NCBI GenBank assembly: GCA_002716385.1
Contig: PBAX01000001.1
Span: forward strand, 1 to 64,000
DNA: 64,000 nt
From: Phycisphaerae bacterium
GTDB lineage: Bacteria > Planctomycetota > Phycisphaerae > Phycisphaerales > SM1A02
Direction: 5' to 3'
In this document: positions 22,536 through 37,735 of the stretch, piece by piece
Layout: each line of letters opens with the position of its first letter
How positions within the stretch are numbered: position 1 is the first letter of the stretch
Translations under genes and position numbers: made by a program
Notes under the pieces: model-generated
What the model saw: the letters and a program-made list of their open reading frames with translations, nothing else
Databases searched by the model: none
Told to the model about the DNA's origin: nothing

Positions 22536-22633
22536 CTGAATGGGAATGACCCACTGCTGCCTGTAGTTCATGGAGGAACCGATGGCTCGGCAGTGAAGAC
22601 CGTTCACTCGATCAGGCAGGATGCCGAAGATCG

Positions 22634-24301
22634 ATGGCAATTTCTGGGGACATGACGCGAACGTATCTTGACCGCCTGCGAGGCCTTTCGGTGCCGACCC
22701 GAATGCTGGCAGGTGCCGTGGCCGTGATTCTGGTCATGGGCCTTTTTCTAGTCTCGCTGTATGCGGGCCGTTCTACGATGGTGCCATTGCCGGTCACCTT
22801 GAGCAGCGATGCCAAGGTCCGCACGGTGGCCTATCTGTCCAGTCACAATCTCGATTTCGAAGACACTGGTTCGGCGATTCTGGTGAATCAGGACGATCGT
22901 GACCAGATCGTGAGCCAGTTGAATGAGGCTTCGGTGATCACCCCTGATCAGATCGACTTCGACAAGATGGTCAAGGACGAGCGGATGTTCCTGACCAAGG
23001 GTCAGCAGCGGACGCGTACACGTGTCGCCACACAGAATGTCCTGGCCAGAATGATCTCCCAGATGTCTCAGGTTCGCACCGCGACCGTGGTTATAAGTGG
23101 AGAGGATGACCATATCGGAATTGGCCGCGCATTCGTTCCTCGAACGGCCTCTGTGACCGTCGTGACGGAATCGGAGCCTCTGAAACCTGAAGGTGTGGAT
23201 GCGATCGCCAGAATGGTGGCCGGTTCCATCTCGGGATTGAAGGCGGAATCGGTTTCGGTCATCGACGCCAGAACCGGGCGGGCGATGGCGGCGAGATCCG
23301 GCGACGCCGTGGCTTCCACAAGGAACATGGAGACTAAGCTGGCCGCCGAGAGGATGGCTCACTCACGACTGCAGGAATCACTCGGCTACATCAAGGGAAT
23401 TCGAATCAGCGTTAATGCCGTGGTTGAATCACGGGAGATCGTCCGTGAGACCACAAGTTACGAGGATCCCAAGCTCGGTGTCACTCAGGAGACACTATCC
23501 GAGTCGACCCGAACGACACCGGTGAACGGACGAGAGCCCGGTATCCGTGCCAATTCCGGTCTTCGGGTGACGATGCCGTTGCCGATCGCCGCCCAATCTG
23601 GGCCATCGAGTGCCGATACCTCCGAACGCGTGGAAAGCGTCCCGGCCTTCGGTCGAAGCGACCAGAGGGTCATCGATCCGGGCGGTTATGCCCTTGAGAT
23701 CAATGCCAGCATCGGAATTCCCAGATCCTATTTCACGGCATTGCAGAAGCAGCGTTCCGGAACCAGCTCCGGCCAGATGCCTGATGGCGGTTCGATGGAT
23801 CAGCTCATAGAGAGCACGCTTGAATCCATCGAGTTGCAGGTGATGCCCCTGATTGCCACTGGTTCGGCCGAAGGGATGCGTCGTGGAGAGGTGACGGTCG
23901 CCGTCTTCGACGATGTTGCCGTTATCGCTGAACAGAGTTCCTTCGCCGCGGTATCCGGAAGTTGGCAGGAGGCCTCCGCCTTGTCGACCTGGCTGCCAAC
24001 GGCCGGTCTCGTCCTTCTTGCCGGTCTGGCGGTCGGGATGATGGTGATGATGCTGCGTCGAGTGGGTGCTGGCATCAATGAAGCCCGGCCCGCGATCGAA
24101 ACGGGGCAAGCGACTCTACTGGCCGAGGATGTCGATGTGATCGGCGAAGTCGATGACGCCGATGTCGTTCTGGACGGGATTGAGATAAACAATGACGAAG
24201 TTCGACGCCGTGTCATGCTCGACCAGATCCGTGAAGCGGTTCAGGCTCGGCCCGAGGAATCGGCATCGGTGCTTCGACGATGGACAAGGACCGAGAGCTG
24301 A
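22634..24301 (+). CDS. fliF: Flagellar MS-ring protein FliF
   Basis: FliF builds the MS ring in the inner membrane. The 555-residue product has an N-terminal membrane helix (about residues 24-44). The ring-building motifs follow, with a YscJ/FliF domain at roughly 45-215 (SSHNLDFEDTGSAILV, LTKGQQRTRTRVATQNVLARMI) and a large middle domain. A second membrane helix lies near 455-478. The C-terminal FliG-binding tail ends QIREAVQARPEESASVLRRWTRTES. Its stop overlaps the probable fliG ATG at 24301 (TGATG). Confidence 0.95.
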   Translation: MAISGDMTRTYLDRLRGLSVPTRMLAGAVAVILVMGLFLVSLYAGRSTMVPLPVTLSSDAKVRTVAYLSSHNLDFEDTGSAILVNQDDRDQIVSQLNEASVITPDQIDFDKMVKDERMFLTKGQQRTRTRVATQNVLARMISQMSQVRTATVVISGEDDHIGIGRAFVPRTASVTVVTESEPLKPEGVDAIARMVAGSISGLKAESVSVIDARTGRAMAARSGDAVASTRNMETKLAAERMAHSRLQESLGYIKGIRISVNAVVESREIVRETTSYEDPKLGVTQETLSESTRTTPVNGREPGIRANSGLRVTMPLPIAAQSGPSSADTSERVESVPAFGRSDQRVIDPGGYALEINASIGIPRSYFTALQKQRSGTSSGQMPDGGSMDQLIESTLESIELQVMPLIATGSAEGMRRGEVTVAVFDDVAVIAEQSSFAAVSGSWQEASALSTWLPTAGLVLLAGLAVGMMVMMLRRVGAGINEARPAIETGQATLLAEDVDVIGEVDDADVVLDGIEINNDEVRRRVMLDQIREAVQARPEESASVLRRWTRTES

Positions 24302-34900: not shown

Positions 34901-36313
34901 TCAGGGATGGGAAATGGCGTGCCTGAGCCTGTCCAGCAACTCCCGGACGAGCACGTGACCCTCTTCACCGCTGCCTTTTCTAGAAAGGCGGACTGTGGCC
35001 TTGTCCTTGACCATCGTCTCGATTCTGCGGGCCGCCGCATGGGCGGACGAATGATTCCGGCGACCAAGGACTCTGGCTATTTCCGGATAGCTGTAATCGG
35101 TCATCCTCCGGGCTAGGCAGGCGATCAGGCCTCGTCCCAGAGATACTCTGGCACTTCTGTCACGACCAGCCAGATCCGCCTTGGTCAGATTCAGATGATC
35201 GCAGACCGTGTCGGAGATGCGATCCAGGGTGATGGGCTGGGTTGTTTCCCATGCATGCTCAAAGACCTGTGAGACGGTGTCCGCGGGAACCGTGCCACTT
35301 CCGGATCCACGGACCTGAATCAGAGCGCTGAGCCGAGTCATCGCACCTTGTATCTCTCGGACGGAACCAACGCAATGCGAGGCAACCACTTCGATCGCGG
35401 AGTCATCCATCGCCAGACCGCGGTGGTCGGCGAATCGATTGACCAGGGTCCGTCTGGTGTCCCGACAGGGGCGTTCGATTTCAACAACCATGCCACTGAG
35501 GAACCTGCTCACGAGCCCTTTGGTGAAACTCTTTATCTGGTGGGGGTGGGCGTCGCACGCCAGAACGATCCTCGAGCCTGTCAGATGGATGGCATCTAGG
35601 GTGTGAAGGAACTCCGCCTGAGTCTTGGTCTTGTCACTCAGGAAGTGGATGTCATCTATTGCGAGAACCGAGAGCCGTCTCATCGAGCGACGGAACTCAT
35701 CGATCTTGTTTTCCCGAACTGATGCGATGTATTCGTTGGTGAATTGCTCGCCTGTGAGATAGCGGATCGGATCCTGCCCACCAAATTGATCGCGGTATCG
35801 GCGACAGACTCCCTGAAGCAGGTGGGTCTTGCCCAGACCGCACCCCCCGTGGATGAACAGGGGCGATACGGGGCAGGGGCCGGCCTCTCCGGCAATTCTG
35901 GAGGCCGCCGACCAGGCGAGCTCATTGCTGGGGCCAACGACGAATTCCTCGAGCTTGTAGTTATTGGAGGCGTTCCGCTTTCGAGATCTTTGGGATCTAC
36001 GCTCCTCAGGAGCCTGTGGAAGCGGTTTCGGCTGGCTATGGGAAGCGGCGTCAGGTCCCGGACGATCGGTTCGGACGCTGACGGAAACGTTGATGGGGCC
36101 TCCCACCACATGTTCAGCAACTTCCCTCAGATCACGTTCGAAATGAGCATTGATCCAGTCCGCGGCAAACTGTGACCCTGCCATGACGGCGAGGCCGCTC
36201 TCGTCCAGCTCAAGATTGGCCTGGCCGAACCACATCGCATGCCGACGTTGTCCAAGCCGCTTGGTGAGCAGATCGGTGATGCTGTCGGTGGTCGGAGGAG
36301 CTTGCGTGGGCAC
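34901..36313 (-). CDS. dnaA: Chromosomal replication initiator protein DnaA
   Basis: DnaA melts oriC. From GTG 36313 the product is 470 residues; the frame also holds a TTG at 36340. It shows a divergent domain I and a linker rich in Pro, Arg and Ser. The AAA+ core starts YKLEEFVVGPSNELAWSAA, with Walker A GGCGLGKTHLLQ, Walker B VLAIDDIHFLSDK and the sensor region SRFLSGMVVEIERP. Domain IV has ARRMTDYSYPEIARVLGRRNHSSAHAAARRIE, the DNA-binding signature. The gap above it holds foldbacks and DnaA-box-like words. No dnaN follows; the next gene is the HEAT-like protein. Confidence 0.95.
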   Translation of the reverse strand: MPTQAPPTTDSITDLLTKRLGQRRHAMWFGQANLELDESGLAVMAGSQFAADWINAHFERDLREVAEHVVGGPINVSVSVRTDRPGPDAASHSQPKPLPQAPEERRSQRSRKRNASNNYKLEEFVVGPSNELAWSAASRIAGEAGPCPVSPLFIHGGCGLGKTHLLQGVCRRYRDQFGGQDPIRYLTGEQFTNEYIASVRENKIDEFRRSMRRLSVLAIDDIHFLSDKTKTQAEFLHTLDAIHLTGSRIVLACDAHPHQIKSFTKGLVSRFLSGMVVEIERPCRDTRRTLVNRFADHRGLAMDDSAIEVVASHCVGSVREIQGAMTRLSALIQVRGSGSGTVPADTVSQVFEHAWETTQPITLDRISDTVCDHLNLTKADLAGRDRSARVSLGRGLIACLARRMTDYSYPEIARVLGRRNHSSAHAAARRIETMVKDKATVRLSRKGSGEEGHVLVRELLDRLRHAISHP

Positions 36314-36347
36314 GGGAGTCTCTTGATGTAGCGGCAACAAACGGATC

Positions 36348-36369
36348 CATCAGCGGTAAACCACTGATG
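36348..36369 (-). promoter_or_regulatory. Hairpin just upstream of the dnaA start codons
   Basis: CATCAG at 36348-36353 pairs with CTGATG at 36364-36369, and inner GGT pairs with ACC across single C and A mismatches. The hairpin ends 8 bases above the TTG at 36340 and 35 bases above the GTG at 36313. A role in limiting dnaA translation is possible but unproven. Confidence 0.4.
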
Positions 36370-36508
36370 AGCAGGAACATGCCTTCATCCAGCGATCGGT
36401 CATCGGAACCGCTGGGAAGATGCTGGGTACCCGCCAGGTCATTCACGGGTTGGAATCCATCCATTGCCAGAAAACAGGAGTCTCACTCATGATCCGGGCT
36501 TCAGCTCG

Positions 36509-36590
36509 AATGCCGCTGGCCGAGGGCCAGCGTTGAGCCCGGCAGAGCCGGGTACAAACGCTGTCCTTCGGCAACCTCGGCATTGCGAGG
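36509..36590. repeat. Large foldback element with nested hairpins, in the 460-base gap upstream of dnaA
   Basis: The region 36341-36799 has no convincing gene. Inside it, bases 36509-36584 fold back on themselves. AATGCCG pairs with CGGCATT, and about 18 further pairs follow with few mismatches. The top is the perfect hairpin CCCGGC-AGA-GCCGGG at 36538-36552. Alternative local stems are CGCTGGCC-GAG-GGCCAGCG at 36514-36532 and CCTCG/CGAGG at 36575-36590. Such interlocking dyads recall REP-like or IS200/IS605-end structures or a folded RNA. I cannot tell which. Confidence 0.55.
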
Positions 36591-36727
36591 TGCACTCATC
36601 CTTCCTTGGACAAGCAAAGGGAATGTACTGGGAAATTCGAGCTCTGCGGGGGTGAATTCGGCGTCCCACAGGAGTGGGTAGATGGTTTTATGCCTGTATT
36701 GCAGGAGATGCGCCGATCAAAAGTTTT

Positions 36728-36773
36728 CTATCCACAGGCCTTGTCCACCTGCCCATGACCAAGGGGTGGAAAA
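36728..36773. other. DnaA-box-like cluster, candidate origin-linked region
   Basis: CTATCCACA at 36728-36736 matches the DnaA box TTATCCACA at 8 of 9 positions. TTGTCCACC at 36741-36749 and the reverse complement of 36765-36773 (TTTTCCACC) each match at 7 of 9. Three such words within 46 bases, beside dnaA, suggest an origin or dnaA autoregulation site. No clear AT-rich unwinding element was recognised, so this remains tentative. Confidence 0.4.
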
Positions 36774-36799: not shown

Positions 36800-37735
36800 T
36801 CAGCGAATCGATCGGATAACGGCTCGACGCCGACCGGTGGGTATGAACCCAACTGAATCGTAGAGCTTCAATGCAGGCGTGTTCGCAAGATCGACAGCCA
36901 ACGAAAGTGTCCCCAGTTTCTCCTTGGCGGCCATGGATGTTCCGTGTTGCAGGAGTAGTCGTCCCCAGCCCTTGCCGCGTGCTTCAGGGCCGAGCCCTAT
37001 GTAGACGAGTTCGGCCTGTGCCTTCTTGGTGGAACGATTGATCAGTATGCAGCCAACCGGTTGATCGAGGTGATAGGCGATCGACCATAGCGTTGGATCA
37101 AAGCTACCGGTTGCCTGATGTCCGGTGACAACGTCATCCGTCGATCGAAGACCACGCAATGCCGGGCAATCCAGAGTATCCACGTATGAACGATCGAGCG
37201 CCTCTATCAGGTCATTTCTGAGGGTGGCGTCATATGTTTGGATTCTTAGACCGGCGGGTACTTCAACAGTCTGCACTCGTTTGGGCAGTACATGATCCAT
37301 GTACTGGAGAATCGCCAGTTCGGTGAAGTTGCTTGATTGGAATACTCTTTGTCCCGACTGGTCGTTCACTAGCAGTAATGATTGGGCCAGATGGACATCC
37401 TGCGACTTGAGAAACTCGAGTCCATGGTCCAGCAGCTGATGTACCTGATCATGTTGGGCGTCGGACACAGCATCCGAAGTGAAGAGCATGACCGTTCGTC
37501 CCGCCGAAGGGACCGCGAGCAGGCATGAACTGGGAAGGCCCCTTGGGTCCCTTATGATCCAAGTCCAGTCGAGGCTAATCTGATTGTCCCTCGCATACGT
37601 CTTGAAACGCTCGGCATCGCTGGTCTGGGCACCCTGAGGCAGGAGAAGCCGGAGTGCCTGAATCAGGTCAGCTGGCCCTGCCAGCTCAGGCCCTTGGCTG
37701 TCTTGAAATGGGGATTTGTGGGTCTGTGAGGTCAT
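36800..37735 (-). CDS. GNAT-family N-acetyltransferase
   Basis: The 311-residue product is about twice the size of a single GNAT domain. The C-terminal half is a clear GNAT with WSIAYHLDQPVGCILINRS, VYIGLGPEARGKGWGRLLLQHG (acetyl-CoA pyrophosphate loop, RGKGWG) and the LAVDLANTPALKLYDSVGF end. The N-terminal half looks like a degenerate GNAT lacking the CoA loop. The substrate is unknown. It faces away from the secreted-protein gene at 37831 and ends at the dnaA-proximal gap. Confidence 0.82.
   Translation of the reverse strand: MTSQTHKSPFQDSQGPELAGPADLIQALRLLLPQGAQTSDAERFKTYARDNQISLDWTWIIRDPRGLPSSCLLAVPSAGRTVMLFTSDAVSDAQHDQVHQLLDHGLEFLKSQDVHLAQSLLLVNDQSGQRVFQSSNFTELAILQYMDHVLPKRVQTVEVPAGLRIQTYDATLRNDLIEALDRSYVDTLDCPALRGLRSTDDVVTGHQATGSFDPTLWSIAYHLDQPVGCILINRSTKKAQAELVYIGLGPEARGKGWGRLLLQHGTSMAAKEKLGTLSLAVDLANTPALKLYDSVGFIPTGRRRAVIRSIR

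Follow-up and report, generated by a model that had tools for sequence, protein, structure and literature searches.

A single-copy foldback upstream of dnaA in a Phycisphaerales bacterium belongs to the probable dnaA leader RNA, behind a conserved candidate CsrA docking hairpin

Introduction

Hairpins that display A(N)GGA have been described as the sites of CsrA/RsmE proteins (PMC10729762). SELEX with CsrA gave the consensus RUACARGGAUGU, mostly in six-base loops (PMC7652899), and CANGGANG hexaloops are reported as CsrA sites in a study that also gives 18 nt as the best distance between two sites for a CsrA dimer (PMC4894983). In the flhDC leader of Escherichia coli, CsrA occupies two sites close to the 5′ end and thereby blocks RNase E (Yakhnin et al. 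2013, as cited in PMC7652899). Caulobacter and Bacillus provide examples of dnaA being controlled through its leader, so that leader control itself is not new; how the DnaA level is set in bacteria outside the model groups is largely uncharted.

The locus considered here lies in a stretch of 64,000 nucleotides (hereafter the window; GenBank PBAX01000001.1, positions 1–64,000), which belongs to contig C1 of a Phycisphaerae MAG (GCA_002716385.1; 2.79 Mb in 29 contigs, 92.2% complete, 8.14% contaminated). The first-pass annotation had singled out a large nested foldback upstream of dnaA and had offered two explanations, a member of a dispersed repeat family or a folded RNA controlling dnaA. The second fits much better: the foldback (P2) falls within what is probably the leader of dnaA, read from the minus strand. 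What is strongest and conserved most widely in that leader is nevertheless not the foldback but a hairpin directly 5′ of it (P1, 36593–36616), which the annotation had not listed.

Results

The dnaA gene occupies positions 34901–36313 of the minus strand, probably starting with GTG at 36313–36311. Its product exceeds the cut-offs of Bac_DnaA, Bac_DnaA_C and DnaA_N and scores 336 bits with TIGR00362 DnaA, slightly below the cut-off of 343.9; the nearest named relative is the DnaA of Phycisphaerales bacterium UBA3158 (86% identity). The gap that holds the foldback separates dnaA from an upstream GNAT acetyltransferase gene, likewise on the minus strand (36800–37735), and the order GNAT gene, gap and dnaA in the same orientation recurs at 123 of the 130 family loci examined (from 178 family genomes with a DnaA match), the other seven, which have no GNAT match and lie in part on short stretches, being left out of the counts. 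Read in the direction of dnaA, the gap consists of DnaA-box-like motifs, a −10 box and a leader of about 300 nt. The probable −10 box of the dnaA promoter, TACATT (36622–36627, minus strand), represents a TAnnnT that the family keeps at constant spacing from P1, and a clear −35 element is absent in the window's genus. We infer from the sequence that transcription starts near 36616, so that the RNA would begin with P1.

The DnaA-box-like cluster (TATCCACA, TTGTCCACC and GGTGGAAAA; 36729–36773, no strand assigned), situated between the GNAT gene and the dnaA promoter, comprises motifs that we take to be putative DnaA boxes, and is kept in the genus alignment and in part across the family. The GC skew has one sign across the whole window, and no origin shift is therefore visible in it, which makes self-control of dnaA a likelier role for the cluster than that of an origin. 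Just upstream of dnaA, a small separate inverted repeat, ATCAGCGGTAAACCACTGAT, was seen at 36348–36369; genome G144 carries TTCAGTGGTAACCCACTGAA at this position, with matching changes on both arms. An 84-aa frame (36210–36464, minus strand) was considered as a leader peptide and rejected, being out of frame with dnaA and overlapping its start; its resemblance to a frame of G144, only local and judged by eye, was attributed to the 36348–36369 hairpin and to a second GGA site, P3, described below. No tRNA or tmRNA was found in the window.

The nested inverted repeat is real, extends over 36502–36592, and is much stronger than its shuffles on both strands. The interval 36500–36600 folds with about −60 kcal/mol on the plus strand (z −6.54) and about −53.4 kcal/mol on the minus (dnaA) strand (z −4.64), 0 of 200 shuffles being as good in either case, and the whole dnaA leader of about 300 nt has a fold z of −6.02. 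In the dnaA-sense fold, P2 is one long, nearly unbranched stem of 35 pairs. The perfect inner hairpins that had been pointed out do exist, but on the dnaA strand they are merely alternatives to this stem: when pairs spanning more than 30 nt were forbidden, P1 plus the leader reached at best −58.0 kcal/mol, versus −72.5 kcal/mol unrestricted. Two competing local hairpins checked on the dnaA strand each have a probability of 0.0.

The nested palindromic shape and the intergenic position would both suit a dispersed repeat of the REP/BIME type, moved by a Y1 transposase, and the recurrence of a flank, GGGCTnCA..ATGCC, had been read as a possible mark of such a family, a suggestion that the data do not bear out. 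This flank has two occurrences in the window against 0.22 expected; the other one (24071–24086, minus strand), however, is a 16-base match inside an open frame of the Pfam family YscJ_FliF. Over its length, the foldback matches only itself in the assembly, further matches being weak and fragmentary (about 14 to 42 bases), and no PF01797 match was found in the genome at its 92.2% completeness, although 5 of 14 control genomes were positive. Since it is single-copy, and since a Y1 transposase was not found in this genome, the foldback does not qualify, within this assembly, as a dispersed repeat, an origin that we regard as extremely improbable. A search of the window against Rfam 15 likewise gave no match at gathering score, the best weak matches reaching 14–15 bits against cut-offs of 50–70. 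The foldback is a real single-copy helix of the probable dnaA leader RNA.

Comparison within the genus shows that the roughly 100 nt behind P1 fold into a single long stem without branches in each of the six congeners, the window included, with 35, 30, 36, 26, 37 and 32 pairs against shuffle means of 17–19. The fractions of shuffles reaching these stems are 0, 0.077, 0, 0.207, 0 and 0.02, so that P2 taken singly is not significant in two of the six, and the z of the region is below −2 in five of them. The P2 sequences align poorly across the six species (alignment A1), which are too divergent there for base-pair covariation, stem length and z being used instead; as long stems persist all the same, the shape is kept while the sequence turns over. 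The annotation's own refuting condition, relatives showing neither conservation nor covariation, was checked: the shape of P2 is conserved at the genus level only, and the strong covariation detected among relatives is that of P1. P2 is not a family trait: the mean z across the family is −1.21 behind P1, as compared with −0.28 ahead of it and −0.38 for controls from the GNAT coding sequence (20 of the 123 gaps, which were not anchored, and two that were too short being left out), and stems of 30 or more pairs behind P1 are found also in genera g37 (6 of 7) and g42 (4 of 6).

The same observations bear on the view that P1 is the working element and that the foldback is incidental GC-rich structure, or merely stiffens the leader or lends RNase resistance. 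It is a serious alternative, which we hold to be somewhat less probable than its opposite; the unconserved P2 sequence, the restriction of the trait to some genera and the two congeners without significance of their own are in its favor, whereas a single stem of 26–37 pairs at the same place in six of six congeners, the z values in five of them and the long stems of g37 and g42 speak against it. A quite different possibility is that the foldback acts on the plus strand, as an RNA antisense to the leader of dnaA, or at the DNA level, in the form of a cruciform or an origin element by the DnaA boxes. In the window the plus strand indeed folds better (−59.6 versus −53.2), the DnaA-box-like motifs are 130–180 bases from the foldback, and an antisense RNA over the dnaA leader is described in Bacillus subtilis (PMC12112137). 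The window is, however, the exception among the congeners, the dnaA-sense strand folding more stably in the other five of six; moreover, no terminator-like T run follows the foldback on either side, and the GC skew of uniform sign reveals no origin shift. We consider this possibility improbable, and treat P2 in what follows as a helix of the dnaA leader RNA.

P1 (UGCUUGUCC-AAGGAA-GGAUGAGUG; 36593–36616, minus strand) probably forms the 5′ end of the dnaA mRNA, closely following the −10 box and directly preceding the foldback, and consists of a stem of nine pairs with an A(N)GGA(N) loop (36602–36607) that reads AAGGAA in the window and is closed by C–G. The motif was first spotted by eye, and all hexaloop hairpins in the 123 family gaps were then counted by loop class (xNxxxN). 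Among the 256 classes, ANGGAN ranks first at every stem length, being found in 80, 50 and 36 of the 123 gaps with stems of 4, 5 and 6 or more pairs, respectively, as compared with class means of 5.6, 2.3 and 1.0 and with reverse-strand counts of 2, 0 and 0. Because related genomes are not independent, genera were counted as well: P1, in both loop forms, with a −10 box at the right distance occurs in 91 of 123 gaps and 26 of 37 genera, against 0.1 on average (maximum 1) in shuffles and none on the reverse strand.

For the covariation of the stem, 58 gaps were chosen by promoter and hexaloop only, the stem itself not being selected; in assembling this promoter-based set, 31 of the 123 gaps were dropped for want of a promoter call, as were 9 of the remaining 92 that had neither loop (at least one of these nine, L029, has P1 by another count, so that its promoter must have been misplaced). 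Stem pairs 2–5 form in 53, 52, 51 and 41 of the 58 gaps, where shuffles give 26.4, 34.7, 27.4 and 31.5 and none of 2000 reaches the observed values. With one sequence per genus (n = 27), pairs 2–4 still stand out (1, 0 and 0 of 2000 shuffles), and pair 5 is weaker (69 of 2000). A pentaloop form, AGGAN, with a covarying stem accounts for another 25 gaps in three genera, and the loop starts 13 nt behind the −10 box in 30 of the 58 hexaloop and 18 of the 25 pentaloop gaps. All four bases are found at position 2 of the hexaloop, among 13 listed loop types, and the closing pair is C–G in 27 of 28 aligned rows; the covariation score over these 28 rows, pre-selected for stems of four or more pairs, is 0.779 versus 0.274 in shuffles. 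Genera g13, g15 and g16 have no A(N)GGA loop at the place of P1. Beyond the family, a P1-type hairpin with a −10 box lies upstream of dnaA in 12 of 20 genomes belonging to the order but to other families, and in none of 20 from other orders of the class, these 40 genomes being our own pick from 298. P1, the neighbor of the foldback, is widely conserved and is probably the functional heart of the region. It lies about 290 nt away from the dnaA start codon, too far for a simple block of the ribosome.

The A(N)GGA loop and the covarying stem look like those of a CsrA/RsmE site, making P1 a candidate CsrA docking hairpin; a point against this reading is that its nine-pair stem in the window exceeds most of the SELEX stems presented in PMC7652899. 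Of 181 family genomes, 177 encode CsrA, and this genome has two copies. The canonical copy (NCBIfam CsrA, 5.2e-26) aligns with solved CsrA chains from Leu4 to Arg44, over residues that we take to be RNA-binding, and its gene adjoins a FliW gene and a flagellin-domain gene. The other, a divergent copy with an insertion (C1:99011–99175; L166:1453–1668), is of a form shared by most genomes of the family and, elsewhere in the order, by families f2, f4 and f5; the genomes sampled from f3 and from other orders yielded none. A test of whether P1 strictly accompanies one of the CsrA copies was negative: P1 is retained in 18 of 30 gaps of genomes where only the divergent copy was found, in two of three genomes of family f3, which lack that copy, and in G175 (88% complete), which gave no CsrA match, and 19 of the 20 genomes from other orders have CsrA without P1. 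As P1 does not track one copy, it looks like a lineage-specific gain, and its reader may be either copy or something else.

Such a distribution would also be compatible with P1 being a generic 5′-protective hairpin, or a ribosome standby or Shine–Dalgarno-like site, the loop of which is kept for a partner other than CsrA. GGA resembles the Shine–Dalgarno core, a 5′-terminal stem alone can stabilize an mRNA, and P1 both occurs without canonical CsrA and is absent from other orders that possess CsrA. A generic stem would, however, need no fixed A(N)GGA loop, and the tolerance of all four bases at hexaloop position 2 is as in a CsrA site and unlike a Shine–Dalgarno match. In addition, the second genome-wide match to a model of P1 falls at a FliA/WhiG-type sigma gene, in a genome with a FliW–CsrA cluster. 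We judge a non-CsrA function of P1 unlikely on these grounds, and prefer to see in it a docking site of a CsrA-family protein.

The model in question, R1, is a covariance model built from dnaA P1s alone (28 training rows) and run genome-wide. In this genome, dnaA comes first with 27.2 bits and the FliA/WhiG-family sigma gene second with 25.6, the dnaA site being itself one of the training rows and the sigma gene not among them; the remaining matches, of at most 20.1 bits, appear to be chance. Across the congeners, dnaA ranks best in six of six, and the sigma gene (fliA) is among the matches in three. The match at the 5′ end of the sigma gene lies at C19:5030–5066 (L248:1501–1537). An ACGGAC hairpin is found about 38 nt upstream of the gene in three of six congeners, and a hairpin at the same place in five of six, with a patchy occurrence elsewhere; the count of loop classes upstream of the sigma gene is likewise led by ANGGAN (8 of 30, class mean 0.53). 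The strict −10 rule finds the fliA hairpin in only 2 of 30, a low count because the possible −10 box of this genome, TATAGT, is farther off than the rule allows, and in two congeners the open frame of fliA runs on across the hairpin, which leaves the status of this stretch as a leader unsure there. Flagellar sigma genes are among the targets to be expected of a CsrA–FliW network. Within the window, a weak P1-like match (12.5 bits) was observed at 22549–22585, just upstream of a FliF-family frame, as a hairpin GUUC-AUGGAG-GAAC with an ANGGAN hexaloop; it is possibly another CsrA-type site in a flagellar cluster.

Behind the foldback, the leader contains P3 (UGGAUGGAUUCCA; 36451–36463, minus strand), a second GGA site and a candidate weak CsrA site, which takes the form CGG-A(A/U)GGAN-CCG in the congeners and is present in all six genomes of the genus. 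The motif GGANGGA..CC occurs in 25 of 99 gaps (4 of 103 anchored gaps being left out) against 2.8 in shuffles and none on the reverse strand, an enrichment tested on the same data in which P3 was first seen by eye. In the predicted whole-leader fold of the window, P3 does not form, its stretch pairing elsewhere. About 145 nt of sequence separate the loops of P1 and P3, a distance that shrinks to about 55 nt with P2 folded out; set against the best dimer distance of 18 nt given in PMC4894983, this leaves bridging of P1 and P3 a guess.

Discussion

Taking the evidence together, we think it rather probable that P2 is the second helix of a structured dnaA 5′ leader, in which a CsrA-family protein would be bound at P1 and P2 would serve as a spacer. 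In the proposed mechanism, P1 at the start of the RNA would display A(N)GGA in its loop for binding by the CsrA-family protein. With about 90 nt taken up by the folded P2, the weaker P3 may come within range of the CsrA dimer in this genus as well. Bound at the very 5′ end, CsrA would most simply protect the dnaA mRNA from 5′-end-dependent decay, in the manner described for flhDC of E. coli; alternatively, it may hold the leader in a less translated form. Either way, the synthesis of DnaA would follow the activity of CsrA.

A broader and distinctly more tentative proposal concerns the order Phycisphaerales as a whole, and may well claim too much: the start of replication could be under direct control of the CsrA family through P1, the mRNA of a flagellar-type sigma factor carrying a like hairpin, and in this genus the foldback might bring a second site within reach of the dimer. 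CsrA and its antagonist FliW could in this way tie swimming against replicating, with the divergent CsrA possibly being the reader of dnaA. The order-wide conservation and the covariation of P1 make the idea of a CsrA–dnaA link directly testable. Should that link prove true, chromosome replication would be started under the control of a protein whose best-known roles are in metabolism and motility.

Our literature search found no paper on CsrA control of dnaA, nor in print a CsrA-type hairpin, such as P1 appears to be, kept on dnaA through an order. In the accessible text of a study of E. coli CsrA targets, the sole match to 'dnaA' is the word DNAase (PMC5694010), and the list of dnaA regulators in the Discussion of the B. 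subtilis arrA paper does not name CsrA (PMC12112137).

The candidate leader is worth comparing with the described systems. With arrA of B. subtilis it has in common control at the RNA level at the dnaA leader, the agent there being an antisense transcript and not a protein-binding hairpin (PMC12112137). The dnaA 5′ leader of Caulobacter provides a precedent for post-transcriptional control of DnaA through a long leader, although no CsrA-type hairpin is named in the portions of that report available to us (PMC4489657). The flaA leader of Campylobacter jejuni resembles the present one in its ANGGA hexaloop hairpins with C–G closing pairs and compensatory changes, and in the FliW–CsrA pair of the genome; its two sites are, however, 21 nt apart with one over the ribosome site, whereas here some 145 nt separate P1 from P3, and P1 precedes the start codon by about 290 nt (PMC4894983). 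In comparison with flhDC of E. coli, the target here is dnaA, one strong hairpin stands at the probable first bases of the RNA, and a long foldback precedes the candidate second site; shared with flhDC are a long leader with GGA sites close to its 5′ end and a target that regulates a major program of the cell (PMC7652899).
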